This document shows, piece after piece, positions 15,870 through 62,141 of a DNA stretch of 64,000 nt (position 1 is the stretch's first letter; each line of letters starts with the position of its first letter). The stretch is from contig NZ_CP021023.1 of NCBI RefSeq assembly GCF_002117005.1, positions 62,001-126,000 on the forward strand, read 5' to 3'. The position numbers were made by a program, and so were the translations under genes. Source of the DNA: Sedimentisphaera salicampi (GTDB lineage: Bacteria; Planctomycetota; Phycisphaerae; Sedimentisphaerales; Sedimentisphaeraceae). A model generated the notes under the pieces. It worked only from the letters and a program-made list of their open reading frames with translations, did no database searches and had not been told where the DNA came from.

Positions 15870-16457
15870 ATGAAAAAGATGTTGGTTGTTTTTGCGGTTT
15901 GTTTTGCTGTTTTTAACGCTGAGGGCGCGGTTGATTGGGATATCTATGATGATGCCTCAATTCAGGATGGAGATGTTTATCTCGCCGTAAACATTTATGA
16001 TAACCCCCCTGAACAGACAGTGGTAAATATGACGGGTGGAGACATTTCTCTTTGTTCAATTAACAATTCAGCGACGCTGAATTATAAAGGCGGCGACATA
16101 AGTACTTTACAGGCAAATAACCAAAGCGTTGTTATGTCTGATTCTGTAGATATTCCCACAATGTATTTGTACGAAGAAACACAAGCTTATATCCATAACG
16201 GCAGCTATGGTTCAAGCATCTTTCTTTATGACAACGCAAAAGTGCATATTTATGGGTACAACTTTGATTACAACGAGCTTGTTAGTCCCAATTTATTGAA
16301 TGGACAATGGGAAAATGGTGAGAGCTTTTCTTTAGTTTTTAGAAATTCATACTCTTACAATTCTGATCAAGTAATCCTGCATGAAGTCCCTGAGCCGGCA
16401 ACGGTACTGCTTCTTGTTTCAGCAGGCGGTGTTTTGTATAACAGAAGAAAATCTTAA
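15870..16457 (+). CDS. PEP-CTERM surface protein, array gene 1
   Basis: A 195-residue secreted protein. Residues 1-19 (MKKMLVVFAVCFAVFNAEG) are a signal peptide. The centre is a series of short strands with Gly/Asn turns (VVNMTGGDISLC, then LNYKGGDISTL), as in a beta-solenoid. The C-terminus is VPEPATVLLLVSAGGVLYNR plus RKS, a PEP-CTERM signal: PEP motif, membrane helix and basic end, recognised by an exosortase for processing and surface delivery. No exosortase gene lies in the window. The first 60 residues are almost identical to array gene 3. Function is unknown; family members are usually matrix or surface proteins. Confidence 0.9.
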   Translation: MKKMLVVFAVCFAVFNAEGAVDWDIYDDASIQDGDVYLAVNIYDNPPEQTVVNMTGGDISLCSINNSATLNYKGGDISTLQANNQSVVMSDSVDIPTMYLYEETQAYIHNGSYGSSIFLYDNAKVHIYGYNFDYNELVSPNLLNGQWENGESFSLVFRNSYSYNSDQVILHEVPEPATVLLLVSAGGVLYNRRKS

Positions 16458-16484
16458 AAATTATAAAATAATCCTTTTTTTTTC

Positions 16485-16570
16485 TTGAATAACGTTTTTG
16501 ATTTGATAAAGTAAAAATACTAAAAATGTAAGGTAACTAAAATTTTCCAAGCAAAATTAAGGAGCTGAAA
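16485..16570 (+). repeat. Conserved leader repeat, copy 2 of PEP-CTERM array
   Basis: Second copy of the leader described at 15791, with the same TTGAATAACG start, the TAAAGT box and AAGGAGCTGAAA before the ATG. It is preceded by a T-rich run (16474-16483) that ends the previous gene's 3' flank and may help terminate its transcript. Confidence 0.8.
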
Positions 16571-17146
16571 ATGAAAAAGATGTTGGTTGTTTTTGCGTTT
16601 TGTTTTGCTGTTTTTAATTCTGATGGCGCTGTTGATTGGGATATCTATGATGATGCCTCAATTCAGAATGGAGATGTTTATTCAGCTGTTAATGTTTTCA
16701 GTGATTCTTTTGTTGAAATGACTGGAGGCGGAATAAATATTTTAAAGACGTTTGATACCGCTGAATTTGCAATAATCAGAGGTGATGTTTCAGCTGGAAT
16801 TCAATTATACGATTCGAGCACGGTTAATATTTACGATGGTAATATTTTCGGGTTAACTGCAAATGATGCCAGCACAGTCAATATCTATGGGGGTGGGCTG
16901 GAATATCAATACGGCATCTCTTCTGAAGCTGTAGTTAATTACTTTGTTAGTTCTTATTCTCTTTACGATGCGGGAGGGCAAGGTGTGATAATGAATGGTT
17001 ATTGGAAAGATGGTTCTCCCTTCTCGGTGTCTTTTAGAGATTCTGAAAGCTGGGATAAGGCCAATATTATAATCGTCCCCGAGCCGGCAACGGTATTGTT
17101 TTTCGGCTTAGCGGGCGGTGTTTTGTATAACAGAAGAAAAGCTTAA
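16571..17146 (+). CDS. PEP-CTERM surface protein, array gene 2
   Basis: A 191-residue protein with nearly the same signal peptide as gene 1 and the same start of the mature part (AVDWDIYDDASIQNGDVY). The centre differs and shows a clear period of about 19-20 residues: FVEMTGGGINILK, EFAIIRGDVSAG, TVNIYDGNIFGL, TVNIYGGGLEYQ. This fits one coil of a parallel beta-helix per repeat. It ends VPEPATVLFFGLAGGVLYNR plus RKA, the PEP-CTERM signal. The last 72 bases are almost identical to those of array genes 4 and 5. The ligand or role is unknown. Confidence 0.9.
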   Translation: MKKMLVVFAFCFAVFNSDGAVDWDIYDDASIQNGDVYSAVNVFSDSFVEMTGGGINILKTFDTAEFAIIRGDVSAGIQLYDSSTVNIYDGNIFGLTANDASTVNIYGGGLEYQYGISSEAVVNYFVSSYSLYDAGGQGVIMNGYWKDGSPFSVSFRDSESWDKANIIIVPEPATVLFFGLAGGVLYNRRKA

Positions 17147-17170
17147 AATTTATAATATTATTTTTTTTCC

Positions 17171-17255
17171 TTGAATAACGTTTTTGATTTGATAAAGTAA
17201 AAATACTAAAAATGTAAGGTGATAAAATTTTCTAAGTGAAATTAAGGAGCTGAAA
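17171..17255 (+). repeat. Conserved leader repeat, copy 3 of PEP-CTERM array
   Basis: Third copy of the leader described at 15791, 85 bases, with the same start, spacing and AAGGAGCTGAAA site before the ATG of array gene 3. Confidence 0.8.
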
Positions 17256-17840
17256 ATGAAAAAGATGTTGGTTGTTTTTGCGTTTTGTTTTGCTGTTTTT
17301 AACGCTGAGGGCGCGGTTGATTGGGATATCTATGATGATGCATCAATTCAAGATGGAGATGTTTATCTCGCCGTAAACATTTATGATAACCCCCCTGAAC
17401 AGACAGTGGTAAATATGACGGGTGGAGACATTTCTTTTTGCAATATTTTCGATTCGGCTCAGCTTAATTGCAGCGGCTGCGAGATCAGTTTCTTAGATAC
17501 ATATAACAATTCAGTGGTTTCAGTAAACGCTAACGCAGGCTTAGACTTAATAGATATGTATGACAGCAGCACTGTTTTCCTTCACAACGGAGCTGAAAAT
17601 GTTTCAAACATAAGAATATATAACGATTCTTTGCTGCATATCTATGGCTATTCATTGAAAATTGAGCCTTTATGGGTTGAGGGTTACAGCGTTGATGATG
17701 AATGGTTTACCATCAACTTTCGCAACAGCTTTATCCCGGAAGACCACATAATACTCCATGAAGTCCCCGAACCGTCAACTATACTGCTTTTAGGCTCAGC
17801 ATCAGGAATAGTCGTAAGCAGGCAAAAGAATAAATCATAA
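17256..17840 (+). CDS. PEP-CTERM surface protein, array gene 3
   Basis: A 194-residue protein. Residues 1-60 and their DNA nearly equal those of array gene 1 (IYDNPPEQTVVNMTGGDIS), then the two diverge completely. The centre again has short strand-turn units (VVSVNANAGLDLIDMYDSS, then TVFLHNGAENVSNIRIYNDS). The C-terminal signal is VPEPSTILLLGSASGIVVSR plus QKNKS, a PEP-CTERM motif whose sequence differs from the shared block of genes 2, 4 and 5. Gene 4 follows after only 27 bases without its own leader, so genes 3 and 4 probably share a transcript. Confidence 0.9.
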   Translation: MKKMLVVFAFCFAVFNAEGAVDWDIYDDASIQDGDVYLAVNIYDNPPEQTVVNMTGGDISFCNIFDSAQLNCSGCEISFLDTYNNSVVSVNANAGLDLIDMYDSSTVFLHNGAENVSNIRIYNDSLLHIYGYSLKIEPLWVEGYSVDDEWFTINFRNSFIPEDHIILHEVPEPSTILLLGSASGIVVSRQKNKS

Positions 17841-17867
17841 AAGCATAGAAATTTGGAAGGCGAATAA

Positions 17868-18473
17868 ATGAGAACAAATATAATTGCTTTAATATTTTTT
17901 GTTATAACAGCTTCTGCGTATTCTACCCTTTGGGAAATACAAGAAGATGAGAATATTAACAATTCTGTCTATGACCAAATAAACGTATATAATGAGGCAA
18001 CGTTGGACGTTGAAGGATCTCAAACCGCGGTTTCTTGGATGAGAAGCTATGATTCAAGCATTATTAATCTTTACAATGGAGAAATTTCTACGCTGCATCA
18101 ATATGATTCTTCTGTTTTGAATTTACATGGGGGTAATCCGCAGGGTTGGGAGATGTTCGAGCAAAGTACTGCTCATATTTATGGTGGAGATATCGAATTT
18201 ATTATGATAAACGAATTAACTAACAGCGTAAATATATATGGTTTCGATTTCAATTTTGTACGATCGGGAGGCCAACAGGAATCAGGTTGGCTCTCTGGCT
18301 ATTGGCAAAATGGGCAGGAATTTGAGATTTATTTACGCTATTTGCCTGATGTCTTTCCCGAAGACCCATATTTGGGTACCTCATATATCACCCTTCATGA
18401 AGTCCCCGAGCCGGCAACGGTATTGTTTTTTGGCTTAGCGGGCGGTGTTTTGTATAACAGAAGAAAAGCTTAA
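17868..18473 (+). CDS. PEP-CTERM surface protein, array gene 4 (unlike N-terminus)
   Basis: A 201-residue protein. Its signal peptide (MRTNIIALIFFVITASAYS) and mature N-terminus do not match the other array members, and the conserved leader is absent. The centre has the same style of repeats (IINLYNGEISTLHQYDSS, then VLNLHGGNPQGWEMFEQS). The end, VPEPATVLFFGLAGGVLYNR plus RKA, is identical in protein to genes 2 and 5, and its last 72 bases (18402-18473) are almost identical to theirs in DNA. It therefore appears to be a mosaic that has acquired the common 3' end. GGAAGG serves as the ribosome binding site. Confidence 0.88.
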   Translation: MRTNIIALIFFVITASAYSTLWEIQEDENINNSVYDQINVYNEATLDVEGSQTAVSWMRSYDSSIINLYNGEISTLHQYDSSVLNLHGGNPQGWEMFEQSTAHIYGGDIEFIMINELTNSVNIYGFDFNFVRSGGQQESGWLSGYWQNGQEFEIYLRYLPDVFPEDPYLGTSYITLHEVPEPATVLFFGLAGGVLYNRRKA

Positions 18474-18497
18474 AAATTTATAAGATAATCTTTTTTT

Positions 18498-18582
18498 TTG
18501 AATAACGTTTTTGGTTTGATAAAGTAAAAGTACTAAAAATGTAAGGTAATAATATTTTCCAAGCGAAATTAAGGAGCTGAAA
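18498..18582 (+). repeat. Conserved leader repeat, copy 4 of PEP-CTERM array
   Basis: Fourth copy of the leader described at 15791, preceded by a T run and followed by the ATG of array gene 5. It has a few substitutions (GGTTTG for GATTTG, AAAAGTAC for AAAATAC) but the same ribosome binding site. Confidence 0.8.
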
Positions 18583-19110
18583 ATGAAAAAGATGTTGGTT
18601 GTTTTTGCGTTTTGTTTTGCTGTTTTTAACGCTGAGGGCGCGGTTGATTGGAATATTAACAGCAGTCAATTGATTGAAAATGGGTCTTACGGAAATATTC
18701 GAATATTTGATGGTCAATCGGAGCAAACAATTGTTGAAATGTCTGGAGGGTCCTGTCTTTCTGTAATTACCCATGACACGAGTAAATTTGATCTTCATTC
18801 AGGATCTGCTGATGTAATAACTGTATATGATTCAAGTGCTGTAAATCTCTTTGGCGGGGCTGTAGAATCAGTTTACGTTAATACCGGAATTTTAAATTTG
18901 TATGGATATGATCTCTCAATCCAAAACCATGATGTTTCTAATGGGATTTTTAATTTAACTGGTTATTGGGAAAACGGCGCAGCTTTTGAAATATATTTTG
19001 AAAGAGCATATTTAGACCAAAACACATTTCTCCACGAAGTCCCCGAGCCGGCAACGGTATTGTTTTTTGGCTTAGCGGGCGGTGTTTTGTATAACAGAAG
19101 AAAAGCTTAA
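18583..19110 (+). CDS. PEP-CTERM surface protein, array gene 5
   Basis: A 175-residue protein, the shortest of the array. The signal peptide equals that of gene 3. The mature part departs early (AVDWNINSSQLIENGSYGNI) and has fewer strand-turn units (IVEMSGGSCLSVITHDTS, KFDLHSGSADVITVYDSS, AVNLFGGAVESVYVNTG). It closes with a WENGAAFEIYF strand also recognisable in genes 1, 2 and 4, and with the common VPEPATVLFFGLAGGVLYNR plus RKA signal. Members differ mainly in the number and sequence of solenoid-like coils. Confidence 0.9.
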   Translation: MKKMLVVFAFCFAVFNAEGAVDWNINSSQLIENGSYGNIRIFDGQSEQTIVEMSGGSCLSVITHDTSKFDLHSGSADVITVYDSSAVNLFGGAVESVYVNTGILNLYGYDLSIQNHDVSNGIFNLTGYWENGAAFEIYFERAYLDQNTFLHEVPEPATVLFFGLAGGVLYNRRKA

Positions 19111-48824: not shown

Positions 48825-49373
48825 TTGAAAGCGGAGATTCAAAAAAATACTGATCTGCATACCGGCGAGAAGTTTACAGATCTTCTCACCGGAAACCAAA
48901 GGCAGATTCATGCTTATATAATAAGCCTTGTTGGCAACTTCAATGATTCTGAAGACATTCTTCAGGAAACCACCAAGGAGATGTGGCAGAAGTTTGAAGA
49001 TTACAAACTGGGCACAAATTTCCTTGCATGGGGTAAAAAGATCGCTTACTACAAGGTTCTGGAGTATAGAAACAGAAACAAGCGGAAAAAGTTTGTTTTC
49101 GATGATTACATACTCCAGCAGATAAGCAAGGAGTCTGTTTCGGAGCTGAAAGACGCAAACTCTTACACTATGTTTCTTGAGGATTGCCTTAAAAAACTCA
49201 GAGATGCGGATTTGAATCTCGTTAAGTCTTTGTATGTGGAGCAGAAAACTGTTAAAGATCTTTGTGCGAGCCTGAACCGCTCTCACCAGAGCATATACAG
49301 GAGCCTTGGAAGAATTCTAAACCTGCTGCGGCAGTGTATTCTCAGGGCATCAATGAGGGCAGGAAATGAATAG
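48825..49373 (+). CDS. ECF-type RNA polymerase sigma factor
   Basis: A 182-residue sigma-70 family factor of ECF layout. Region 2 is at about 22-90 (LTGNQRQIHAYIISLVGNFN, then DSEDILQETTKEMWQKFEDY and FLAWGKKIAYYKVLEYRNR). Region 4 is at about 125-175 (VKDLCASLNRSHQSIYRSLG, a helix-turn-helix). It should direct a small regulon under control of the FecR protein encoded directly after. The start is TTG at 48825 with AGGA upstream. The overlap with the FecR gene is 8 bases. Confidence 0.92.
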   Translation: MKAEIQKNTDLHTGEKFTDLLTGNQRQIHAYIISLVGNFNDSEDILQETTKEMWQKFEDYKLGTNFLAWGKKIAYYKVLEYRNRNKRKKFVFDDYILQQISKESVSELKDANSYTMFLEDCLKKLRDADLNLVKSLYVEQKTVKDLCASLNRSHQSIYRSLGRILNLLRQCILRASMRAGNE

Positions 49374-51093
49374 ACAAACAATTTTAGAATTTAGAAGCCT
49401 GTGCATTAAGCTTTTCGAAGGGTCTCTGGATGATCATGAAAGCCAAAGGCTTAATGAGCTTATGTATCACCCTGCGCTGAGGAAGGTCTATTTCGGTTTG
49501 GTTAAAGTCAATCTCTCTCTTAAATTCGCAGGCGAATGCTGCAGAGAATCTTCAGAACTTCTAAGTGAAGAAACTTTTGTTGAACAGGTATGGGAGAGTC
49601 TCGCAGAAGAGGAGAAAAATGCTGAGCCTGCTCAAAGGTTTGAATCTATTGAAGAATCGCCAAGAAGAGTGAACAGGAAGGTTTATCAGCAAAAACAGCC
49701 AAGGCAGATCAGCAAATTCAATCTCTATTCAGCTATCACCGGCGCTGCTGCCCTGATATTTCTATTCATTTTTGCAAGCCTTTCGCCGGAGAGAGCAGCA
49801 GTGAAAGTGGCGGCGGTTAGAGATTCACTTGATGTTAAGTTTGCAGATGACTCTAAGAGATATTCCAAGGGCGATATCATCTGGGCTGAGGAAACTATTA
49901 AAATTTCCGAGGGGTTCATTGAATTTGCAACTGCGCGGGATGTTCTTATAACAGTTGAAGCACCGGCTGAGTTTGAATTCAATAAGCAGGACGATATGCA
50001 GCTCGAATACGGCCAGCTTTACGCAAATGTCGGCGAGAATGGGATTGGTTTCACTGTCCATACAGACAATATGCGATTGATTGATCTTGGAACCGAGTTC
50101 GGCGTTTACAGGGATAAAAAGGGCTGGACAGAAGTTCATATGATAGACGGCGAAGCAGCTCTTGTGGCTGGCGGGTCTTGGTTTAAGAAAACCAAACAGC
50201 AGCTGTTTCAAGGGCAGGCAAGGGGCGTTTCCGGAAACGGAACCAGTGTAGAAGAGCTTGATTCTAAGCCGGAAAAATTTGCCCGATACATTAACTCAGA
50301 CCATAAATCTGTATGGCGAGGACAGAAAACATTAGGCCTTGCTGATATTGTCGGCGGCGGCAACGGCCTCGGCAGCGGCGAGTATAAATCCGGCATAGAT
50401 ACAGCTTCTGGTGAATATACTGCGGACATTAACAGGCTTAATTCGCTCAAGTCTTCCAGCGGCAATAGATATTTTAATGTCAAATCTCTTCCGTTTGTTG
50501 ACGGGGTATTTATCCCGGACGGCGAGTTTGGCTCAGTTCAGGTTACAAGCCAAGGCCATACATTCAGCGAGCTGTCAGATACAGACGGAAAATACTGGAT
50601 CGGGCTCCTTAACGGCGCATACCATCCGAGGCTGAATGATGTTCTGCCGCATACACTTACTTTACAGGGAGCAAAGCAGAGTTATCCTGAAAATTCAGCA
50701 TTGTTTATACATCCAAATCAGGGAATCACATTTGACCTAAATAAAATAAGGCAGATTGTTGAAGGAAATCAGTTTGCCAGGTTTACCGCCGAATTCGGGC
50801 TTTCAGACAGCGTGTTTGACAACGACAACTTTGTTGTACCTCTGAATAATTTTGAGGTGTTCAAGGAGGGCCAGCTAAATTGCGATTTGCAGGTGCTCGT
50901 TGATGGTCAGCTTCGATTTGAGAAAAGGAACCAATCCCCCTCGCAAAAGCCGAGCAGGGTGGATCTAACACTAAAACCGCAAGATCGCTTCTTGACCATC
51001 ATTGTATCAAATCCTGTCGAAGACAATCTGCCTGATTCCGGTTTTGTCTGGGCATTTATGAGAGAGCCCAATCTCCATATCAGGAGAAATTAA
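49366..51093 (+). CDS. FecR-type membrane regulator with NPCBM-like C-terminal domain
   Basis: A 575-residue protein. Residues 1-110 are cytoplasmic and helical (EFRSLCIKLFEGSLDDHESQ), the anti-sigma-like part. One membrane helix follows at about 120-140 (ITGAAALIFLFIFASLS). The FecR domain is at about 145-270 (GDIIWAEETIKISEGFIEFA, then GFTVHTDNMRLIDLGTEFGV). The C-terminal 200 residues contain HTLTLQGAKQSYPENSALFI, FTAEFGLSDS and DRFLTIIVSNPVEDN, a pattern like NPCBM carbohydrate-binding modules. It could thus sense a glycan outside and act on the sigma factor inside. The start overlaps the sigma gene stop. The NPCBM assignment is by eye. Confidence 0.88.
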   Translation: MNRQTILEFRSLCIKLFEGSLDDHESQRLNELMYHPALRKVYFGLVKVNLSLKFAGECCRESSELLSEETFVEQVWESLAEEEKNAEPAQRFESIEESPRRVNRKVYQQKQPRQISKFNLYSAITGAAALIFLFIFASLSPERAAVKVAAVRDSLDVKFADDSKRYSKGDIIWAEETIKISEGFIEFATARDVLITVEAPAEFEFNKQDDMQLEYGQLYANVGENGIGFTVHTDNMRLIDLGTEFGVYRDKKGWTEVHMIDGEAALVAGGSWFKKTKQQLFQGQARGVSGNGTSVEELDSKPEKFARYINSDHKSVWRGQKTLGLADIVGGGNGLGSGEYKSGIDTASGEYTADINRLNSLKSSSGNRYFNVKSLPFVDGVFIPDGEFGSVQVTSQGHTFSELSDTDGKYWIGLLNGAYHPRLNDVLPHTLTLQGAKQSYPENSALFIHPNQGITFDLNKIRQIVEGNQFARFTAEFGLSDSVFDNDNFVVPLNNFEVFKEGQLNCDLQVLVDGQLRFEKRNQSPSQKPSRVDLTLKPQDRFLTIIVSNPVEDNLPDSGFVWAFMREPNLHIRRN

Positions 51094-51145
51094 CAAGAGC
51101 AGTATTTGCAGTTATGAAAAGTAACTAAACAATAAAGAGGATAAA

Positions 51146-51958
51146 ATGAATAATACAAAAAAAGGATTTACACTTATAGAGCTTCTGGTTGTTATTTCAA
51201 TCATAGCTCTGTTAATGGCAATTCTTATGCCTGCTTTGAGCAAGGCAAGGGAGCAGGGCAAAAGGATGCTCTGCGCTAATAATCTAAGGCAGTGTGCTGT
51301 GGCCTGCCAGATTTATTCCCAGCAGAACAGGGGGGTGTATCCCCTTCAGGCAACCACAGCTTGGGCGTGGGATATTTCTTACTGGACAACCGATCTGATT
51401 ATCGACAGCGGCGCAGAACCGGATATCTTCTACTGCCCATCAAATACCAAGATGTCTGCCGATAAAGACAGGTACTGGAGATTTGCTGAGATCTGGCCGG
51501 AAGCGCCAAATACAAGCCTCGACAGAGAAGAGCCCGATACCCTTTTCCACAGGAGAAATCTCTACAGGGTTTCATCATACTTCTGGTTTTTCGACAGCTA
51601 CGAGGTGCTTGAGGACAAAAATGCAGGGCGGCCTGACCTTGAAGGAAGGCCGACTACAGACTGGCTCGTTAAATCTCAGGACGTGGAAAACCCCGCTGAG
51701 AGGAAAATGATTGCCGATGCTGTTTTCAAGCAGAATGAGCTATACACCCAGATCAAAGGCGGCAATTGGGACGGCTGGCAAAAGACTGACAGAACAAATC
51801 ACGTTGACGGAGGCGGCGAGCTTAACGGCTCGAATGCTGCTTTCGTTGACGGCCATGTGGAATGGCTTGGCGAAGAGGAACTCGAAAACCCAGACGGCAC
51901 CGACAGGGTTCGGCTCAGAGTAGGCGGTTCCGGCGGTACCGTAGAGCAGATTTGGTAA
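51146..51958 (+). CDS. Planctomycete-type prepilin with H-X9-DG motif
   Basis: A 270-residue protein with leader MNNTKKG, then [20 protein letters not shown] with Glu at +5, a type IV pilin-like N-terminus. The head ends with [20 protein letters not shown], the H-X9-DG region of a prepilin-like family greatly expanded in Planctomycetes. Its role is unknown; members are thought to form surface or pseudopilus structures processed by prepilin peptidase. GAGGAT precedes the ATG. It lies 52 bases after the FecR gene and is probably co-transcribed with the sigma unit. Confidence 0.9.
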
Positions 51959-52041
51959 TTATAATTTAAGCAGTAAACAACAGACGATTTTTTCTGTGTG
52001 TTGAAATTCTAATTTAATACTTATTTTTAAGGAGATTCATT

Positions 52042-54435
52042 ATGAAAAGAAGCTTGCTTCTAACAATGTTTCTGGCGGCGCAGTTATTTTTGCTGCAGTC
52101 GCTTGCCGTAGGCAGCACTGTTGCCTACTGGCGTTTCGAAGGCGGTACATCCGATGGAGACCCCATCCTGCACGGAGACGCGGCCGACGGAGATTTTTAT
52201 CCGGCGATAGTTGACAGTTCCGGAAACGGCAACGCCCTTTCTGTATGGCACGAAGGCGCGCACATTTACAGCACGGAGGTTGGATTCACCGAAGTACCTC
52301 AAACTGGGGCATCCAATCAGTTCAGTGCTAAGAACAATACCGGCTTCCCCGGAATGTGGACTCAAACAGGCTCTCAAATTAGCAATATGAGCCCGGCTGA
52401 GTTTACTATCGAGGCAACCGTAAGGCTCGAAAACGGCGGCTATCGCTGTATAGTCGGTCGAGACAGCTACGGCACTTCACCGCACAACCCTGACCTTGCA
52501 GCACTTTATCTTCAGGCTACCCCTGGAAACGGCCTTGCGATAAAATTCTGCGATGTACAGGGTTTTTGGCATGATGCTATTTCAGAGGGCGGAGTGATAG
52601 AAACTTACGATTTTGGCACTAATCCTTCTGGTGCAGGCATTCCGTTCTACAGCATAGCGGCAGTTAGCGACGGCGAATACCTTTCGCTCTATCTTTACAA
52701 CCACGACAGCCCTGAAGAAGGCTACAGGCTTATTGCTCAGGAGAATATGCTCGAAGAAACCGAGAGCACAAATACTGCCCTTACAGCCGGCGCCGGAGAC
52801 GGCGGAGACTGGGACGCAGGTAACTGGACAGTAACAAGAGGTCTTTACGGCGGCGGTCACGGAGATCGTGCTTGGGGTTTTGTTGATGAAATCAGAATCA
52901 GCGATTCAGCCCTTAGAGTTACAGATTTCCTCCAGGGCCCAACACCCTACAACGGTGATGTTGCTCAGCAGTCCGATCCTGTTAACGGCGATGTTGATGT
53001 TACATTCAGCTGGGACGCTCCGGGCGAGGATGCCTCTGGAGACGGTTCAAATGCAGTTGAGCCCGATCTTGTAGATCAGTATGTTTTCGTTAGCTCAGGC
53101 AATGAAGAAGATCCCGAGCTGTACTACGCAGGCGCAACTGGCGTTGACCCGGGCACAGCAGATCCTGCATCTTCATTTGGCCCGGTTGATCTCAACTACG
53201 ACAGCACCTATCAGTGGGCAGTAGTGGGCGTTATGGACGGATATCAGCAGAGCCTCACTCCAGGAGTCAGCACGCTTGCAGATGCAGACCCGAACAACAA
53301 CATTCACGGGCCTGTCTGGGAGTTTGAGTCTATGGCTTCTGTTCCGATAATCGATGAAGACCCCGGCTATGATGTTGTTGCAGATGGCGAAGATGCTTCA
53401 CTGATTGTTGAGGTAACAAGTGTTACCGCGCCATCATTCCAGTGGTTCAAGTCTGAGGATCAGGCAAATGATACACCTGAAGATGATGCTGCTGTAAGCG
53501 ATCCTGATGTAACACTTGATATTGCTCAGGACGGCGAAAGCTACACCTGCACAATGACTGTTCCAGCTGCAGCATTTGCAGACGAAGGATATTACTACTG
53601 CGAAGTTTCAAATGAAAGCGCAGCTTCAGCAGTTTCACAGGCCGGCGAGATTGAGATCGAAAAGCTGGTTAACTGGTACGAATTTGAGAATAACATTATG
53701 GATTCTCAGGGCACAAACCACGGCGTTTCAATGAGAACTGATCCAAACGCTCCGTTTGATTATGCATCAGGAATGGTTGGACAGGCTATTTCTCTCAATG
53801 CCGACGGTGTAGGCGATTCATTCGAAATAGACCAGTCTGTAAAGGCAAACTTCACTATTGAGATGTGGGTTAAGACAACAGGCGATTCTCCAGGAACCGA
53901 CGGCTGGTATAACGGCTTAGGCCTTGTTGACGGCGAACAGAACGGACAAGTTGACGATATGGGGACAGCCCTGCTCGACGGCAAATTTGCTCTGGGAATC
54001 GGTGATTACGACGGCGAAATGCAGATGACGCTTAAGTCTGAATCAGACATCAACGACGACACCTGGCATTACTGCGTTGCAACACGCAACTATGAGACAG
54101 GCGATATGAAGGTTTATGTTGACGGCGTGCTTGAGGCCTCTTTAAGCGGAGCCACAGGGCTGAAAGATGAGCCTGAAACACTTCGAATCGGAGCATTGCA
54201 TACCGGTATGAATTTCTTCCCCGGACTGATCGATGAGCTCAAGCTCTACAACTACGAGCTTTCTGAGGTAGAAATTGCCGATAACTATACTTCTCTAACT
54301 GGCGAGTCTGTTTGCCTTACCTCTCAAGCACCTGATAAAGGCCTTGATGTAAATGATGACTGCCAGATTGATATGGCTGATTTCGCCGGCCTTGCTGCCG
54401 AATGGCTCACTAGCGGCATTTTCCCAGTTCAGTAA
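52042..54435 (+). CDS. Secreted multi-domain LamG/Ig protein with dockerin-like tail, paralogue A
   Basis: A 797-residue secreted protein. Signal peptide is 1-24 (LFLLQSLAVG). Domains are LamG/concanavalin-like 1 (about 27-300, starting VAYWRFEGGTSDGD), a fibronectin-like segment (about 305-435, VTFSWDAPGEDASGDGSN), an Ig-like segment (about 440-545, FQWFKSEDQ and YYYCEVSNES) and LamG 2 (about 548-755, WYEFENNIMDSQGTNHG). The tail is LDVNDDCQIDMADFAGLAAE, a single dockerin-like calcium loop and helix. No catalytic domain is seen, so it is a binding or structural protein for glycans. Paralogue B follows 86 bases later with the same layout. Confidence 0.9.
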   Translation: MKRSLLLTMFLAAQLFLLQSLAVGSTVAYWRFEGGTSDGDPILHGDAADGDFYPAIVDSSGNGNALSVWHEGAHIYSTEVGFTEVPQTGASNQFSAKNNTGFPGMWTQTGSQISNMSPAEFTIEATVRLENGGYRCIVGRDSYGTSPHNPDLAALYLQATPGNGLAIKFCDVQGFWHDAISEGGVIETYDFGTNPSGAGIPFYSIAAVSDGEYLSLYLYNHDSPEEGYRLIAQENMLEETESTNTALTAGAGDGGDWDAGNWTVTRGLYGGGHGDRAWGFVDEIRISDSALRVTDFLQGPTPYNGDVAQQSDPVNGDVDVTFSWDAPGEDASGDGSNAVEPDLVDQYVFVSSGNEEDPELYYAGATGVDPGTADPASSFGPVDLNYDSTYQWAVVGVMDGYQQSLTPGVSTLADADPNNNIHGPVWEFESMASVPIIDEDPGYDVVADGEDASLIVEVTSVTAPSFQWFKSEDQANDTPEDDAAVSDPDVTLDIAQDGESYTCTMTVPAAAFADEGYYYCEVSNESAASAVSQAGEIEIEKLVNWYEFENNIMDSQGTNHGVSMRTDPNAPFDYASGMVGQAISLNADGVGDSFEIDQSVKANFTIEMWVKTTGDSPGTDGWYNGLGLVDGEQNGQVDDMGTALLDGKFALGIGDYDGEMQMTLKSESDINDDTWHYCVATRNYETGDMKVYVDGVLEASLSGATGLKDEPETLRIGALHTGMNFFPGLIDELKLYNYELSEVEIADNYTSLTGESVCLTSQAPDKGLDVNDDCQIDMADFAGLAAEWLTSGIFPVQ

Positions 54436-54521
54436 TGGTGTTTGATTTACAATGATAATGTTATAAAACTTGCAGACCAGAGCTTATCTCTCTGCAGGTA
54501 ATAACAATAAGGAGATTAATT

Positions 54522-56912
54522 ATGAGTAAAAAATTACTTTTAACAGTATTCTTTGCGGCGCAGATATTCCTTCTGCAGTCGCTTGCGGTAGGCGAAACTA
54601 TTGCCTATTGGCGTTTTGAAGAAGGCCCAGCAGACGCTCAGGTTCTCCACGGGGCTGGCGAAGGTCAATTCGCTCCGGATATACCTGATGCTTCCGGTAA
54701 TGGCAATGACCTTTCGGTATGGAACGAGTCGTTCGCAGGATATGGTTTCAGAAGCGAAGTCGGCTATGATACCGTCCCATACACTGGGCAGGCAAACAAC
54801 TTCAGCGTTAAAAATACAGGCGGCTCGCCAGGTATGTTCACTCAAACCGGCTCTCAGATCAGCACTATCGAGCCGTCAGAGTTTACAATTGAGGCCACCT
54901 TCAGGCTTGAAAACGGCGGTTATCGCGGCATCATCAACAGAGACAGCCAAGGCAGTGTAACAGGAGATGCTGCGCTTTCAGCTCTTTATTTTCAGGCTAT
55001 TCCGGAGAACGGCGTTGCAATAAAATTCTGCGATGTTCAGGGCTACTGGCATGATGCTATCTCAGAAACAGGCGTTATAGAAACCTATGACTGGGGAACA
55101 AACCCCTCTGGTGCAGGCGTTCCTTTCTACAGCATGGCAGCAGTGAGCGATGGCGAATTTCTTTCGCTGTATCTCTACAACCATGATATGCCCGAGGAAG
55201 GCTATAAGCTTGTTGCTCAGGAGAATATGCTCGAAGAGACAGACAGCACAAACACCGCTCTCACATCTGGTACTGGAGACGGCGGAGACTGGGATGCAGG
55301 TAATTGGACTGTAGGAAGAGCTTTATTCAATGGCGGACACGTTGACCGTGCATACGGCTATATTGATGAGGTAAGGATCAGCAATTCTGCCCTAAGGATA
55401 ACAGATTTGCTTCAAGGCCCAACACCTTACAATGGAGGCGTTTCTCAGGAATCAGACCCTGCAAACAGCGATGTAAATGTTACTTTCAGCTGGGATGCTC
55501 CGGGCGAGGATTCATCTGGAGACGGTTCAAATGCTGTTGAGCCGGACCTTGTAGATCAGTATGTTTTCATTAGCTCAGGCGATGAAGAAGACCCTGTGCT
55601 TTACTATGCAGGAGCAACTGGCTCAGACCCGGGCACAGACAACCCGGCATCTTCCTTTGGCCCTGTTGACCTCAGTTACGATACTTCATATCACTGGGCA
55701 GTTGTTGGCGTTATGGACGGTTACGAGCAAAGCCTCACTCCGGGCGTCAGCACCCTTGCAGATGCTGACCCGAATAACAACATACACGGGCCTGTCTGGG
55801 AGTTTGATGCAATGGCATCTGTACCTGTTATTGATGAGAACCCGGAATATCAAGTCGTCGCAGACGGCGAGGATGCCTCGTTCACTGTAGAGGTAACAAG
55901 CGTTACTGCCCCTTCATTCCAGTGGTATAAATCTGAAGATCAGGCAAGCGATACCCCTGAAGACGACACCGCACTGAATGAGCCGGAGGTAACTCTGGAT
56001 ATTTCTCAGCACGGCACAACGTATGACTGCACTATGATCTTACCAGCAGCCGCTCTTGCTGATGAAGGCTACTACTACTGCGAAGTTACAAACGAGAGCT
56101 CCGTTTCGGCATTTAGCGATGCCGCCCAGCTCGAAATTGAAAGGCTTCTGCACTGGTACGAATTCGAGAACAATATCATGGATTCGCAGGGAACAAATCA
56201 CGGCGTTTCAATGAGAACTGATCCAAATGCTCCATTCGATTATACAGAGGGTATGGTAGGAGATGCTATCTCTCTGAATGCCGAGAGCGTTGGCGATTCA
56301 TTCGAAATCGATTGGACATTGAAGTCTAATTTCACAATTGAAATGTGGGTTAAAACCACTGCAACTCCGCAGGGCGGAGACAACTGGTGGGAAGGCGCCG
56401 GCCTTGTTGACGGCGAGCTGCCCGGATGGTCAGATGATTTAGGGGCTGTTTATCTCGACGGCAAATTTGCCCTCGGCGTAGGCGATCCTGATGACGGGAA
56501 TATTACCCTTAAATCAAATACCGATTTGAATGACGGAACCTGGCACTATTGCGTTGCTACCCGTGATTATCAAACCGGTGAGATTAAGGTATTTGTTGAC
56601 GGTGTTCTCGAAACCGAAACTGTTGCTCCTGCCGGCCTGAAACAAGGCGGGGATAACATTCGGATTGGTGCTATTCAAACCGGCAGCAATTTCTTCAAAG
56701 GACAGCTTGATGAAGTTAAGATTTATAACTATCAGCTCTCTGAGCTTGATATAGCTCAAAAATACACCACAGTAACTGGTGAAACAGTTTGTGTTGCTTC
56801 TCAGCGTCCGGATGAAGGCCTTGATACAAACAACGACTGCCAAATCAATATTGATGATTTTATGGTTATGGCATCTGAATGGCTTGTAAGCGGGATCTAT
56901 CCTGCAGACTAA
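54522..56912 (+). CDS. Secreted multi-domain LamG/Ig protein with dockerin-like tail, paralogue B
   Basis: A 796-residue paralogue of the gene at 52042 with the same order: signal peptide (FFAAQIFLLQSLAVG), LamG 1 (AYWRFEEGPADAQVLHGAG), fibronectin-like, Ig-like, LamG 2 (LHWYEFENNIMDSQGTNHG) and dockerin-like tail (LDTNNDCQINIDDFMVMASE). Many blocks are identical to paralogue A. The first LamG is closer to that of the GH43 protein at 57130 in places (EEGPADAQV, SVWNESF). AGGAGA precedes the ATG. A strong terminator follows at 56945, so the sigma-led transcript may end here. Confidence 0.9.
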   Translation: MSKKLLLTVFFAAQIFLLQSLAVGETIAYWRFEEGPADAQVLHGAGEGQFAPDIPDASGNGNDLSVWNESFAGYGFRSEVGYDTVPYTGQANNFSVKNTGGSPGMFTQTGSQISTIEPSEFTIEATFRLENGGYRGIINRDSQGSVTGDAALSALYFQAIPENGVAIKFCDVQGYWHDAISETGVIETYDWGTNPSGAGVPFYSMAAVSDGEFLSLYLYNHDMPEEGYKLVAQENMLEETDSTNTALTSGTGDGGDWDAGNWTVGRALFNGGHVDRAYGYIDEVRISNSALRITDLLQGPTPYNGGVSQESDPANSDVNVTFSWDAPGEDSSGDGSNAVEPDLVDQYVFISSGDEEDPVLYYAGATGSDPGTDNPASSFGPVDLSYDTSYHWAVVGVMDGYEQSLTPGVSTLADADPNNNIHGPVWEFDAMASVPVIDENPEYQVVADGEDASFTVEVTSVTAPSFQWYKSEDQASDTPEDDTALNEPEVTLDISQHGTTYDCTMILPAAALADEGYYYCEVTNESSVSAFSDAAQLEIERLLHWYEFENNIMDSQGTNHGVSMRTDPNAPFDYTEGMVGDAISLNAESVGDSFEIDWTLKSNFTIEMWVKTTATPQGGDNWWEGAGLVDGELPGWSDDLGAVYLDGKFALGVGDPDDGNITLKSNTDLNDGTWHYCVATRDYQTGEIKVFVDGVLETETVAPAGLKQGGDNIRIGAIQTGSNFFKGQLDEVKIYNYQLSELDIAQKYTTVTGETVCVASQRPDEGLDTNNDCQINIDDFMVMASEWLVSGIYPAD

Positions 56913-56944
56913 TCGGGTTGATTCTTGCTTCTAAGTAAACAAAC

Positions 56945-56980
56945 AGCAGGCGAGGGATTAAGTCCTTCGTCTGCTTTTTT
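56945..56980 (+). terminator. Rho-independent terminator after LamG paralogue B
   Basis: A 13-pair stem, AGCAGGCGAGGGA (56945-56957) with TCCTTCGTCTGCT (56963-56975) including two G-T pairs, a 5-base loop and a six-T run. It lies 33 bases after the stop codon. Confidence 0.88.
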
Positions 56981-57129
56981 AAAAAAATTTCTCTTGAACT
57001 AAATCTCTTCCTGATTTTTACCGTATATACGTCCATACTTCTTCGTATAAATTTAATGTTGAAAATTGAATGATTTCTTTCATATATAAGTGAATTCACA
57101 AATCGAAAGTGTTTTTATAAGGTTGCCAA

Positions 57130-59736
57130 ATGAATTTATTGATTCGCAATTACAGCCAAAAGCTCTTAGGGTTCTTTGCCTTTTTCCTGCTTTTATCAGC
57201 AGCGCTTCAGGCAGGAGAAACTTATACAAATCCTGTAATCTCCGAGATAGGGCCGGCAGACCCGACGATAATCAAGTACGACGGGAAATACTATATGTAT
57301 CCTACCGGTGATAATGTCAGCTATCATGTTTACACATCCACAGACCTTGTCAACTGGACAAAGGGGGGCAGAGTGTTCCAGCCGGGCGGAGTGAATATCT
57401 GGGCTCCGGATGTTTACTACAACGAAGACGACGGCAAATTTTATATGTATTACACCGCGGATTTCAAAATCGGCGTTGCAACATCGAACAGACCGGACGG
57501 GCCGTTTATAGATCAGGGCATAATTCTGGATGGTTTCATAGATGCCCACTTATTCAAAGACGCCGGCAATTATTATCTGTACTTCACAGATATCGGCCAT
57601 ATGTACGTTCAGCAGATGTCCAGTCCAACTCAGCTAACAGGCGAGAAGCAGGCTATCCTTCAGCCCGATCAGGGTTGGGACCAGGAGGCAGGCTGGGTGA
57701 ATGAAGGCCCGTGGATGCTAAAACACAACGGTACATACTACCTCCTGTTTTCAGGCAGCGGGGCGGATACTCCCGAATACGCTGTGGGCTATGCAACTGC
57801 CGACAACCCTATGGGACCGTTTACAAAATACGAAAACAATCCCATCATCGAAAGGGGCGGCGGTGTTTATGGCCCAGGGCACGGCTCTGTTACCACAGAC
57901 GATGATGGAAATCTCTGGCATATTTATCACCAGAAACAGGACGATAATGTGGATTGGAATCGTTTTATCTGCATTGATCCGATGTGGTTCGACTCAAACG
58001 GTGTCTTACACAGCCGAGCTACGAGGGGCGAGGAGCTTCCTGCCCCCAAGATTGACGGCAACAAGCCCGAACTTGCATATTGGCGTTTTGAAGAAGGCCC
58101 CGCAGATGCGCAGGTCTCTCACGGAGGGCTTGAAGACGGGCTCTTCTATCCGGCTGTCCCTGATGTTACCGGAAACGGAAACCCGCTTTCTGTTTGGAAC
58201 GAAAGCTTTGGCGGATACGTTTATAAAGATCAAACTGCCTTCGATACCGTTCCTTTAACAGGGCAGGCGAATAATTTCAGCGTTAAAAATTCCGGCGGAA
58301 ACCCCGGGATGTTCACAGGGACAGGTTCATTTCTGTCTTCAGTGAGCCCTTCAGAATTCACTGTACAGGCAACTTTCAAGCTGGAGGACGGTGGCTATCG
58401 CGGGATTGTAGGCAGAGACAGCTTCGGCTCGGCAGATAAAGACACGCAGCTTTCAGCTTTTTATTTGCAGGCGATTCCTAATAACGGGATTGCTGTTAAA
58501 TTCTGTGATGTGCAGGGATATTGGCACGATGCAATCTCAGACATTGGTATTATAGAAACCTACGACTGGAATTCGAATCCTTCCGGCGAGGGAGTCCCTT
58601 TTTACAGCGCAGCAGCAGTAAGCGACGGAGAATTCCTTTCGCTCTACCTCTACAACCATGATAACCCCGAGGAAGGCTATAAGCTCGTCGCTCAGGAGAA
58701 TATGCTCGAAGAAACTGAAAGCACAAATACCGCCCTCACTGCCGGCGCAGGAGATGGGCCGGACTGGGACGCCGGCAACTGGACTGTAGGCAGGGCTATG
58801 TTTGACGGCGGACATGCAGACCGTGCTTGGGGCTATATTGATGAGGTGAGAATAACCGCCGGAGACCTCAGGGTTACAGACCTCCTCCAAGGGCCTTCCC
58901 CCTACAACCCTGAAACGGCTTTAACTGCGGATATGGACAACTATGTGGTTGATGCCTATCTCTCCTGGAATGCTCCGGGAACGCCCGATGAGCCGGTTAT
59001 GAGGGATATTGTTAATGAGTGCGTTTTTATAAGCTCCCCGGATCCTCAGGATGACAGCCTTTATTATGCCGGCCAGACAGCAATGGACCCGGGAAACTAC
59101 AACCCCTCTTCATCCCTTGCAGGTATTGAGCTTGATTTTAACGTTTCCTACCGCTGGGCAGTGGTTGCAATTATGGATGGCTGCGAACAGACTTTTACAG
59201 TTGGTCAAAGCACGCTGGCGGATGTGGATTCGAATAATTTGATCGGCCCGATATGGAGTTTTGATTCTATCGAGCTTGAACCGGGTATTGCTGCCCAGCC
59301 TTCCGAGATTGTGCTTGCTGAGGATTCCTCAGCCACAGGCTGTTTCAGTGTCAATCTAAACAGCAAACCGATGGGTGATGTCCAGCTTGAGCTTTCAGAA
59401 AAATATTCACGCGGGCAGTTTACTGTTTCCCCCCAAAGCCTCCTTTTCACCGCTCAAAATTGGTCGGTAGGGCAGGATGTCTGCGTTCAGACGGTTGATG
59501 ATGATATGCTTGAAAGCCCTCTGGATACAGTGCCTGTTGAGGTAAGTGCGTCCAGCTCTGAAGATCAGTACTACAACGGCCTCACAGCAGAGCCTTTTGT
59601 TGTCATAATTGAAGATGATGAGTGCGGCTCGGCAGGCTATCTCAAAGCAGATTTCAATCTCGACTGCAAGGTTGGGATGGACGATTTCAGCTTTTTCGCT
59701 CAGCAGTGGCTTTCAGACACTTTAGTTCAGGATTGA
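57130..59736 (+). CDS. Secreted GH43-family glycosidase with LamG and dockerin-like modules
   Basis: An 868-residue enzyme. Signal peptide is 1-29 (LLLSAALQAG). The GH43 five-blade propeller occupies about 30-300: catalytic base D44 in GPADPTIIKYDGKYY, D138 in DGFIDAHLFKD and general acid E192 in WVNEGPWMLK. GH43 members cut arabinan, xylan or related side chains. A LamG domain (about 315-595, ELAYWRFEEGPADAQ) closely matches those of the two preceding genes. Next come a fibronectin-like segment, a Calx-beta-like segment (about 725-830, GCFSVNLNSKPMGDVQLELS) and the dockerin-like tail LKADFNLDCKVGMDDFSFFA. The start has AAGGTTGCC upstream. Confidence 0.92.
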   Translation: MNLLIRNYSQKLLGFFAFFLLLSAALQAGETYTNPVISEIGPADPTIIKYDGKYYMYPTGDNVSYHVYTSTDLVNWTKGGRVFQPGGVNIWAPDVYYNEDDGKFYMYYTADFKIGVATSNRPDGPFIDQGIILDGFIDAHLFKDAGNYYLYFTDIGHMYVQQMSSPTQLTGEKQAILQPDQGWDQEAGWVNEGPWMLKHNGTYYLLFSGSGADTPEYAVGYATADNPMGPFTKYENNPIIERGGGVYGPGHGSVTTDDDGNLWHIYHQKQDDNVDWNRFICIDPMWFDSNGVLHSRATRGEELPAPKIDGNKPELAYWRFEEGPADAQVSHGGLEDGLFYPAVPDVTGNGNPLSVWNESFGGYVYKDQTAFDTVPLTGQANNFSVKNSGGNPGMFTGTGSFLSSVSPSEFTVQATFKLEDGGYRGIVGRDSFGSADKDTQLSAFYLQAIPNNGIAVKFCDVQGYWHDAISDIGIIETYDWNSNPSGEGVPFYSAAAVSDGEFLSLYLYNHDNPEEGYKLVAQENMLEETESTNTALTAGAGDGPDWDAGNWTVGRAMFDGGHADRAWGYIDEVRITAGDLRVTDLLQGPSPYNPETALTADMDNYVVDAYLSWNAPGTPDEPVMRDIVNECVFISSPDPQDDSLYYAGQTAMDPGNYNPSSSLAGIELDFNVSYRWAVVAIMDGCEQTFTVGQSTLADVDSNNLIGPIWSFDSIELEPGIAAQPSEIVLAEDSSATGCFSVNLNSKPMGDVQLELSEKYSRGQFTVSPQSLLFTAQNWSVGQDVCVQTVDDDMLESPLDTVPVEVSASSSEDQYYNGLTAEPFVVIIEDDECGSAGYLKADFNLDCKVGMDDFSFFAQQWLSDTLVQD

Positions 59737-59786
59737 ATGAAGTTTCAGATTTTATTCTAAGATTTGTTTTTAATAGAAAGGTTACT

Positions 59787-62141
59787 ATGTCAAAAGTAAG
59801 CAAATTAGTTTTATGCGCATTAGTTGTGTGTATGTTTTCCCAGCAGCAGGCTTCGGCTTGGTCGTTAAAGCAGGCCCCGCTCATGACAGACTGGGCAAGC
59901 GAGGTGGACCCCCAGAATACTTTGCCCGAATACCCGAGGCCTCAGATGGTCCGTGAGGACTGGATGAACTTAAACGGTATCTGGCAGTTTCAATCGGGCA
60001 GTGAAGGCGACGATGTTCCCGCAGGCCAGAGTCTAAGCGGCGATATCCTCGTTCCATTCCCTGTGGAATCGGCTATTTCAGGGGTTAAAGAGCACCACGA
60101 AAGGGTGTGGTATAAGAGAACCTTCCAGGTTCCCCAAAGCTGGGATGGAAGCAAAATACTCCTGCATTTCGGCGCAGTTGACTGGGAATCAGAAGTTTAC
60201 GTAAACGGTCAGAGCGCAGGAGTTCACAAGGGCGGCTTCGATACTTTCAGCTACGATATAACATCAATGATCGATTCTCAAAAGCAGGATCAGGAGCTTA
60301 TAGTTCGCGTTTACGACCCCACAAACAGCACTGCCATTGCCTGCGGAAAGCAGGACCTCAATCCAAACGGAATATGGTACACAGCCGTTACAGGCATCTG
60401 GCAGACTGTATGGCTTGAGCCCGTTCCGCAGACTTCCGTAGAAAAATTGAACCTCACTCCAGACGTTGACAATAGCTGCCTGAATATTTCTGCTGATATT
60501 GACGGCGATGGAGAAGGCGTTACAGTGCATGCAAAGGCATTTGCAAAAGGGAAAAAGGCCGGCGAGATAAACGGCGCACCCGGGCAGAAGCTCAGCCTCA
60601 ATCTCAGGGATCCTCAGCTTTGGTCTCCCAGCAACCCTTTCCTCTACGACCTCACTGTTCAGCTCAAAAAGAACGGCAGTATTATAGATGAGGTGGAGAG
60701 CTATTTCGGTATGCGTAAGATTGAAGTAAAGAAGGTTGACGGGAAGAACAGAATCCTTCTAAACGGGGATTTCGTGTTCAATATCGGTCCGCTGGATCAG
60801 GGTTGGTGGCCGGATGGGCTTTTCACCGCCCCCACAGATGAAGCCCTCAAATACGACCTCGATATGACCAAAGAATTCGGCTTTAATATGACAAGAAAGC
60901 ATGTGAAGATTGAGCCGGCAAGATGGTATTACTGGTGCGATAAGCTCGGACTTATGGTTTGGCAGGATATGCCGAGTATGCGTTCAAGCGGGAATGCAGC
61001 CCAGAGGCAGCAGTTCGAGAAAGAGCTTGCGGCTATGGTTGACGATCTCGGGAATCATCCGTCAATCGTATTGTGGGTGGTATTCAATGAAGGCTGGGGA
61101 CAGTATGATACTGTTCGCGTTACTGAAGATGTGATGGAGCAGGATCCTTCAAGAATCGTTACCTGCGCCAGCGGCTGGACAGACCATGAAGTAGGCCATA
61201 TTAAAGACGACCACAGATACTCACCTCCTCACAATCCATCAGCTCCAACCGAGGACAGGGCGTCCGTTTGCGGCGAGTACGGCGGAATCGGTATGAGAGT
61301 AGAAGGGCATATGTGGGAGGAAGACTCCTGGAGCTATACAATGGCCGAAACAGGCGATGAGCTAGAAAGGATATACGATTCATATATCCAGACACTGGTT
61401 CAGTATCGCAAAGACCCGGGATACAGCGGCGCTGTTTACACGCAGATAACCGATGTTGAGGGAGAGATTAACGGCCTGATTACCTACGATCGTAAGGTTG
61501 TTAAGCCGGACCCTGCCGATATCGCTTTCTCAAACAAAATGTATGAGAGAACTTATGATCATATTCTCCCGACATCTGCACAAACCCCGCAGACTTGGAA
61601 ATATTCGGTTTCTGATCCGGGTGAAGGCTGGGAGGCAGCCGGATTCGATGATTCTTCTTGGCAGGAAGGACAGGGCGGATTCGGAACCGACGGAACTCCA
61701 GGAGCTGTTATCGGCACAGTCTGGGACAGCTCAGATATATGGCTTCGCAAGAGTTTTGAAGCAGGCGATTTAACTCCCGAACAAATGGATAAGCTTATTT
61801 TCCGTATTCACCACGATGAAGATGCAGAGGTTTATGTAAACGGTACGCTTGTTCTCTCTGTGGACGGATTCTCCACAAACTACTTGTATGTTAATGCAGG
61901 GCAGGAACTCAAAGATGCAATCCAGCCCGGGCAAACCAACACAATCGCTGTTCATTGCCGTCAGGAAACCGGCGGGCAGTATATTGATGTAGGCATTGCA
62001 GTAGAAACCACCAACTTTGATGATGAATCCTGCGGACAGCTCGGATACGCACCTTCAGATTTCAATCGTGACTGTCTCGTTGATATGAGCGATATGCTGG
62101 TTTTCGTGCAAGACTGGCTCGGAACCTCATCTGAAGGCTGA
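59787..62141 (+). CDS. Secreted GH2-family glycosidase with dockerin-like tail
   Basis: A 784-residue GH2 enzyme of the beta-glucuronidase/galactosidase type, shorter than LacZ. Signal peptide is 1-24. The jelly-roll is at about 55-200 (REDWMNLNGIWQFQSGSEGD), the Ig-like domain at about 205-310, and the TIM barrel at about 315-590 with acid/base E435 in VVFNEGWG and nucleophile E497 in CGEYGGIG. A second jelly-roll-like module (about 600-735, FRIHHDEDAEVYVNGTLVL) and the dockerin-like tail FNRDCLVDMSDMLVFVQDWL follow. ATG at 59787 has GAAAGG upstream and gives a proper signal peptide; a longer reading overlapping the GH43 gene is unlikely. It lies 50 bases after the GH43 gene. Confidence 0.92.
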   Translation: MSKVSKLVLCALVVCMFSQQQASAWSLKQAPLMTDWASEVDPQNTLPEYPRPQMVREDWMNLNGIWQFQSGSEGDDVPAGQSLSGDILVPFPVESAISGVKEHHERVWYKRTFQVPQSWDGSKILLHFGAVDWESEVYVNGQSAGVHKGGFDTFSYDITSMIDSQKQDQELIVRVYDPTNSTAIACGKQDLNPNGIWYTAVTGIWQTVWLEPVPQTSVEKLNLTPDVDNSCLNISADIDGDGEGVTVHAKAFAKGKKAGEINGAPGQKLSLNLRDPQLWSPSNPFLYDLTVQLKKNGSIIDEVESYFGMRKIEVKKVDGKNRILLNGDFVFNIGPLDQGWWPDGLFTAPTDEALKYDLDMTKEFGFNMTRKHVKIEPARWYYWCDKLGLMVWQDMPSMRSSGNAAQRQQFEKELAAMVDDLGNHPSIVLWVVFNEGWGQYDTVRVTEDVMEQDPSRIVTCASGWTDHEVGHIKDDHRYSPPHNPSAPTEDRASVCGEYGGIGMRVEGHMWEEDSWSYTMAETGDELERIYDSYIQTLVQYRKDPGYSGAVYTQITDVEGEINGLITYDRKVVKPDPADIAFSNKMYERTYDHILPTSAQTPQTWKYSVSDPGEGWEAAGFDDSSWQEGQGGFGTDGTPGAVIGTVWDSSDIWLRKSFEAGDLTPEQMDKLIFRIHHDEDAEVYVNGTLVLSVDGFSTNYLYVNAGQELKDAIQPGQTNTIAVHCRQETGGQYIDVGIAVETTNFDDESCGQLGYAPSDFNRDCLVDMSDMLVFVQDWLGTSSEG

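Follow-up and report, generated by a model that had tools for sequence, protein, structure and literature searches.

Four predicted secreted proteins encoded in succession in Sedimentisphaera salicampi each terminate in one dockerin-like unit in which a loop cysteine is accompanied by a second cysteine upstream (hereafter the Cys-tail). They lie within the 64-kb stretch analysed here (the window), which corresponds to positions 62001-126000 of a genome consisting of a single 3.19-Mb contig. The Cys-tail is a variant of the dockerin and no new kind of thing; it is present throughout the order Sedimentisphaerales and is contained in no curated model searched. We lean, without great assurance, towards the view that it is a dockerin derivative peculiar to the lineage, serving for calcium-dependent attachment to a partner that would be no recognisable cohesin. 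The four carriers and their tails are as follows.

52042..54435, + strand: carrier 1, with a signal-peptide-like start and LamG/Ig domains (PF13385, PF13927)
54522..56912, + strand: carrier 2, a paralogue of carrier 1, 71% identical along its whole length
57130..59736, + strand: carrier 3, with a GH43 domain (PF04616, E 5.5e-56) and a region 64% identical to carrier 2
59787..62141, + strand: carrier 4, a GH2 protein (PF02837, PF00703, PF02836) similar to the GH43 protein in the tail only; the start is taken at 59787, that of the mechanical ORF list being 59622
54313..54432, + strand: Cys-tail of LamG/Ig protein 1, with Cys758, loop DVNDDCQIDMAD (Cys774) and a helix to the WL that ends the protein
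56790..56909, + strand: Cys-tail of LamG/Ig protein 2, with Cys757, loop DTNNDCQINIDD (Cys773) and a helix to WL
59623..59733, + strand: Cys-tail of the GH43 protein, with Cys832, loop DFNLDCKVGMDD (Cys846) and the helix FSFFAQQWL
62031..62138, + strand: Cys-tail of the GH2 protein, with Cys749, loop DFNRDCLVDMSD (Cys763) and a helix to WL

One tail unit ends each of the four open reading frames, and all four follow the same plan, namely an upstream cysteine, an EF-type loop of the form D-x-N-x-D-C-x-V/I-D-x-x-D-F, and a helix closing with W-L. Loop position 6 is occupied by cysteine in 4/4 window tails, the upstream and loop cysteines are separated by 14 residues in the GH43 and GH2 proteins and by 16 in the LamG pair, and the glycine at loop position 9 of the GH43 tail is the window's exception among the putative calcium ligands. 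When all six frames of the 64 kb were scanned with the pattern D.[ND].[DN]C.[VI][DNG]..D[FM], four matches were returned, every one of them in these tails. The pattern occurred in 0/2,000 shuffled whole proteins, and a chance origin was rejected because it appeared in 0/80,000 shuffled tails; the four window tails are real. The first-pass annotation had described a single dockerin-like unit with a conserved cysteine at the end of four unrelated proteins. The unit is borne out by the ORF ends, the six-frame scan, and the shuffles, and the cysteine by these four tails and by 69/114 classified tails of the whole genome, whereas the upstream cysteine of each tail had been overlooked and the description of the carriers as unrelated must be abandoned. 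Three of them have a common LamG-type region (the GH43 protein and carrier 2 are 64% identical over 437 amino acids with the tail excluded), and the GH2 protein alone is otherwise unrelated, having only the tail in common with the GH43 protein (50% identity over 34 amino acids, E 9e-8). The point about unrelated carriers does hold genome-wide, because members of the LamG, GxGYxYP, GH43, GH30, GH2, GH115 C-terminal, RGL11, and ricin-type lectin families are tailed.

Loci in the S. salicampi genome were picked with the PF00404 profile and a profile of the window tails (84 and 154 matches up to E 10, respectively), so that the counts given here describe 80 selected stretches rather than an unbiased proteome and leave out the stretch 2292399-2298399, whose match was seen separately. 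These stretches yielded 69 tails with the loop cysteine and 45 without it; unit numbers in this 114-tail census are loose and only its cysteine counts are used. Beyond these, a unit was found only internally or N-terminally in 12 proteins, and one protein was left unclassified. A strict-pattern census, which misses tails with loop inserts, gave 47 single-unit loop-Cys tails, with two-unit dockerins elsewhere in the genome; Cys-free tails, two-unit as well as single-unit, coexist with the Cys kind. Both cysteines are kept in a loop variant carrying several extra residues (e.g. DVSGPEGEPDC). Among the 51 Cys-tail proteins scanned against Pfam, Laminin_G_3 was matched in 32 and Ig_3 in 21, the other families being GxGYxYP, GH43, CBM4_9, RGL11, GH30, GH115 C-terminal, ricin-type lectin, and GH2. 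A signal-peptide-like start was recognised by a rough rule in 64/68 Cys-tail proteins as against 81/171 control ORFs, and 45/69 Cys-tail genes have a same-strand neighbour of their own kind (24 pairs, compared with a mean of 1.8 under uniform placement). A dockerin-type unit placed N-terminally, just after the signal peptide, was seen at 2385666-2386784, 2757821-2758750, and 636698-637771 of the genome.

The two cysteines go together. An upstream cysteine was present in 67/69 loop-Cys tails of the genome as opposed to 8/45 other dockerin-type tails, the four-tail profile used for these loci having included the upstream-Cys columns. The same outcome was obtained for relatives picked by a DNA pattern covering the loop and helix and not the upstream stretch, with 93/95 loop-Cys units across 80 public-genome loci (L181-L260) among the matches listed; in 20 loci of the class sample, many of whose rows have two units, the figure was 11/20. 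Behind the loop, single-unit tails carry either none or two further cysteines with few exceptions, and an odd number was counted in 9/143 tails (S. salicampi and relatives together), compared with the 43% expected from a Poisson distribution of the same mean. Cysteine pairs are thus kept or lost together, as in disulfide-bonded domains. Since the upstream cysteine goes with the loop cysteine and further cysteines are paired, the tail cysteines probably form a disulfide, and on the same grounds, a single reactive cysteine was rejected.

This pairing bears on the suggestion that the tail is a covalent sorting tag, which a transpeptidase-like enzyme would cleave or attach to the surface via the cysteine. 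A C-terminal, repeated, cysteine-containing element on secreted proteins is what would recommend such a reading, but it is rendered highly improbable by the paired cysteines, by the listed tails having no hydrophobic segment and basic end, and by the existence of internal copies. Signals of the PEP-CTERM, LPXTG, and MYXO-CTERM kind are strictly C-terminal and comprise a hydrophobic segment and a basic end, whereas the Cys-tails have a polar character and a single helix. Tags resembling PEP-CTERM or those of lipoproteins were rejected. Among the matches listed from other genomes, 13/115 loop-Cys units are internal; a terminal place is thus not obligatory for the tail, and a cleaved C-terminal sorting signal would not permit such positions. 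The proposal of a distinct sorting or attachment tag therefore survives as a recurrent module on different secreted proteins in a genome with no Pfam cohesin, and finds no support as a reactive or cleaved cysteine tag. PEP-CTERM-like protein ends (VPEPATLALLGIGG...RRR) were observed at 1922783-1923382, 2335026-2335688, 874234-874980, and 1253558-1254364 of the genome, which therefore seems to possess PEP-CTERM-type sorting beside the tails, and in another Phycisphaerae genome (L154), a two-unit dockerin is followed by a PEP-CTERM-like end.

The ancestry of the tail is indicated by a profile built from 42/51 loop-Cys tails of S. salicampi, for which type I dockerins ranked first in the PDB (2y3n_B, E 4.8e-6; 5nrm_B, 3.2e-4; 5nrk_B, 6.9e-4). 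The best match, 2y3n_B, spans profile positions 10-30 only, and the two units of 2y3n match separately. Type I dockerins (PF00404) and Cys-tails are alike in the EF-hand-like loop D-x-N-x-D...D-x-x-D, the exit helix, and detectable sequence similarity, and both are appended to secreted glycoside hydrolases. The type I dockerin consists of two tandem EF-hand-like units, whereas the Cys-tail has one. Glycine or a small residue is usual at loop position 6 of dockerins and EF-hands, and glycine is also visible there in the dockerin rows of the PDB profile search; the Cys-tail has cysteine instead, together with the upstream cysteine. The calcium ligands of the type I dockerin at loop positions 1, 3, 5, 9, and 12 recur, judging by sequence, in the Cys-tail, where these positions are D, N/D, D/N, mostly D/N, and D in a set of 132 tails, part of which was selected by a pattern fixing the putative calcium positions. 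The tail is hence likely to bind calcium. In the same set, loop position 11 and helix positions 18 and 19 have an entropy of at least 3.3 bits, and with the exposed positions so variable, no picture of a conserved binding face emerges.

AlphaFold2 modelling of the GH43 tail with 67 relatives (from an alignment of the 4 window tails and 64/75 tails of relatives) gave a mean pLDDT of 82 and a pTM of 0.55, with a loop and one helix (residues 34-47) predicted and a confident core (10-residue blocks of 94, 97, and 87); a LamG domain modelled together with its tail reached a mean pLDDT of 60 from only 7 sequences. Foldseek returned no match in the PDB for the 52-residue tail model. A Pfam scan extended to E 10 showed no PF00404 in the four carriers, NCBIfam gave no match in their tail regions up to E 10, and the NCBIfam families matched by the 51 Cys-tail proteins up to E 0.01 named no dockerin model. 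No description of the Cys-tail was found in the accessible portion of the open-licence literature.

Two kinds of unorthodox dockerin invite comparison. Non-cellulosomal dockerins in Planctomycetes have been described as part of the planctosome, for which the available part of PMC6461901 sets out a model with cohesin-bearing anchoring and adaptor proteins and peptidases; the Cys-tails, in contrast, occur in a genome without a found cohesin and on lectin-like and carbohydrate-active carriers. The truncated (group 2) dockerins of Ruminococcus flavefaciens, as discussed in the accessible sections of PMC2930009, are likewise incomplete dockerins borne by many proteins but, unlike the Cys-tails, coexist with cohesins and scaffoldins, and a search of that text for cystein* found no mention of cysteine.

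A cohesin partner binding the tail like a normal dockerin would, according to the first-pass annotation, have told against its proposal; by sequence the cohesin check was negative. The Pfam cohesin profile PF00963 had no match up to E 10 in the S. salicampi genome, and at E 0.01, it was matched in 2/31 genomes of the order and in 27/167 other genomes of the class. One large two-cohesin protein, itself ending in a related dockerin tail, is encoded in each of the genomes G018 and G056 (L167, L164), which belong to the same order. Full-length, it was found only in these two among 40 genomes of the order; against it, the S. salicampi genome matched its dockerin end alone and holds no homologue. 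A plain dockerin with a Pfam cohesin was therefore rejected, and given the rarity of cohesins in the order, the tail must do without a recognisable one in most of its members. It is nevertheless conceivable, though unlikely, that the tail is an ordinary dockerin whose cohesin has diverged too far for Pfam. Such a reading would draw on the homology to type I dockerin units, on the tailed two-cohesin protein of G018 and G056, on the discussion of truncated dockerins in R. flavefaciens cited above, and on PMC11557425, the accessible part of which reports that the full cohesin set in Ruminococcus was recovered only via structure prediction and lists a two-cohesin scaffoldin in Limihaloglobus sulfuriphilus. 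It has to contend with the PF00963 and two-cohesin searches just described and with tails that have no second unit.

The distribution of the loop-Cys motif was followed in 198 genomes of the class with a DNA pattern for D.[ND].[DN]C.[VI][DN]..D (RAY and RTN third-position ambiguity included). The motif was present in 31/31 genomes of the order, in 1 to 59 copies (43 in S. salicampi); outside the order, it was found in 45/167 class genomes, each with fewer than 10 copies except G106 (24), and the reversed pattern occurred once across all 198. A one-codon-longer motif searched in 392 genomes of the phylum was present in 10/10 genomes of the order, 1/31 other Phycisphaerae, and 0/351 genomes outside the class. 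In the scan of public genomes, 78/80 loci among the matches listed carry planctomycete names, the remaining two being in Candidatus Adlerbacteria and Candidatus Saccharibacteria bins (L210, L215), perhaps because planctomycete DNA was misbinned or the gene was transferred.

A lack of the tail in orthologues had been put forward as a finding that would tell against the proposal, and the GH2 protein shows this to be half the case. With the protein minus its tail as query, 30 homologues were considered among the matches listed. The 10 closest (56-100% identity, the S. salicampi protein included) are all tailed, nine with the Cys kind and one without the loop cysteine, while none of the other 20 (48-53% identity) shows a tail. 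The alignments of 12 among these 20 reach the last or last-but-one residue of the query; 11 of the 12 stop there or soon after, and one (L344) continues in other sequence. The remaining eight have a differing C-terminal part or are shorter, among them L350, which is open-ended at a contig end. The tail is therefore gained or lost as a unit, and the tail-less homologues mark it as an add-on dispensable for the enzyme. A lipobox, as an alternative anchor, was noted by eye at the N-termini of 0/10 tailed and 5/20 tail-less homologues, few sequences as these are.

The favoured mechanism starts from a dockerin that would have been cut down to one EF-hand unit, comprising a calcium-binding loop and one exit helix, in which the glycine of loop position 6 is replaced by a cysteine that would form a disulfide with another 11-29 (mostly 13-17) residues upstream. 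This staple would probably make up in part for the absent second unit. The module, appended to secreted polysaccharide-binding and -degrading proteins, would pass through Sec export, in line with the signal peptides, oxidation of the cysteine pair, in line with the cysteine statistics, and calcium uptake, in line with the ligand conservation. It may finally dock to a partner at the surface or in the extracellular space, concentrating lectins and enzymes near the cell; this last step is suggested by the tag-like spread of the tail, with up to 59 pattern copies per genome, many carrier families, and variable presence in GH2 homologues. Docking and the resulting location, like calcium binding and the disulfide, are put forward here as inferences.

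Much of the same pattern would also be given by a partner-free module that stabilises protein ends. In this main alternative, to which we accord a lesser though appreciable probability, the calcium- and disulfide-stabilised unit is a folding or stability cap protecting the C-terminus of secreted proteins. The variable exposed positions and the internal copies are compatible with such a cap, as are the 20/30 listed GH2 homologues that manage without a tail; on the other side, one module across unrelated families and an entire order is more typical of a shared partner, and the S. salicampi genome also keeps Cys-free tails of both one and two units. An order of polysaccharide-degrading anaerobes has up to dozens of dockerin-like tags per genome with nearly all genomes devoid of a recognisable cohesin, and either a new receptor for dockerin-type modules exists or dockerin units serve without any receptor. 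Either outcome would alter the interpretation of 'dockerin' annotations in environmental genomes, and should a partner be found, a small disulfide-locked and presumably calcium-dependent tag would make a handy building block.

Last to be considered are the genes preceding the four carriers, which together with them form a cluster (48825-62141) in the order ECF sigma, FecR, prepilin, LamG, LamG, GH43, and GH2.

48825..49373, + strand: ECF-type sigma factor (PF04542)
49366..51093, + strand: FecR-like regulator, probably an anti-sigma factor (PF04773)
51146..51958, + strand: stand-alone prepilin-like protein (PF07963 N_methyl, E 6.9e-9; weak PF07596), classed with the scattered prepilins

Scattered prepilins of the genome lie within 1.5 kb of a same-strand Cys-tail gene in 13/29 cases (mean of 1.23 under a shift null, the observed count being reached in 1/3000 shifts), as against 1/29 near Cys-free tails and 0/18 for clustered prepilins near Cys tails. 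FecR genes are within 5 kb of a Cys tail in 6/12 cases (5/3000 shifts) and of a Cys-free tail in 0/12. In two other genera, represented by G018 and G056, 9/55 and 5/56 scattered prepilins have their start no more than 300 nt downstream of a tail gene (0/3000 shifts each), as judged from 150 matches listed (67 and 83) of 185 found in both genomes. Because tail genes so often neighbour stand-alone prepilins, a pseudopilus link of the tail is possible but weak. The tail might be an export or assembly signal read by a pseudopilus, with the adjoining prepilins loading or displaying the tailed proteins, which we regard as quite unlikely. A bolder version, which we consider just as doubtful, would make the Cys-stapled half-dockerin the address label of a cohesin-free Sedimentisphaerales assembly or export route, in which cluster-specific prepilins, their genes adjoining those of tailed enzymes and pairs of tailed lectins and controlled through ECF sigma/FecR pairs, recognise the tail; the pseudopilus would then stand in for the scaffoldin, or the tail would serve it as a signal for type II secretion. 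Against a pseudopilus signal, prepilins of S. salicampi without tail neighbours adjoin other genes, including ones that look sulfatase-like or transporter-like from their ends, and a prepilin is present in only 4/80 other tail loci. Furthermore, the accessible part of PMC13274419 describes a verrucomicrobial genome in which one pseudopilin has 67 homologues and a pseudopilin is over-expressed on alginate, and a text search of that paper for dockerin found none. For these reasons, the prepilins may simply mark polysaccharide loci. The cluster at 48825-62141 itself resembles a polysaccharide-utilisation locus without SusC/SusD, and elsewhere in the window, a tandem row of five + strand ORFs of 175-201 amino acids was noted at 15870-19110.
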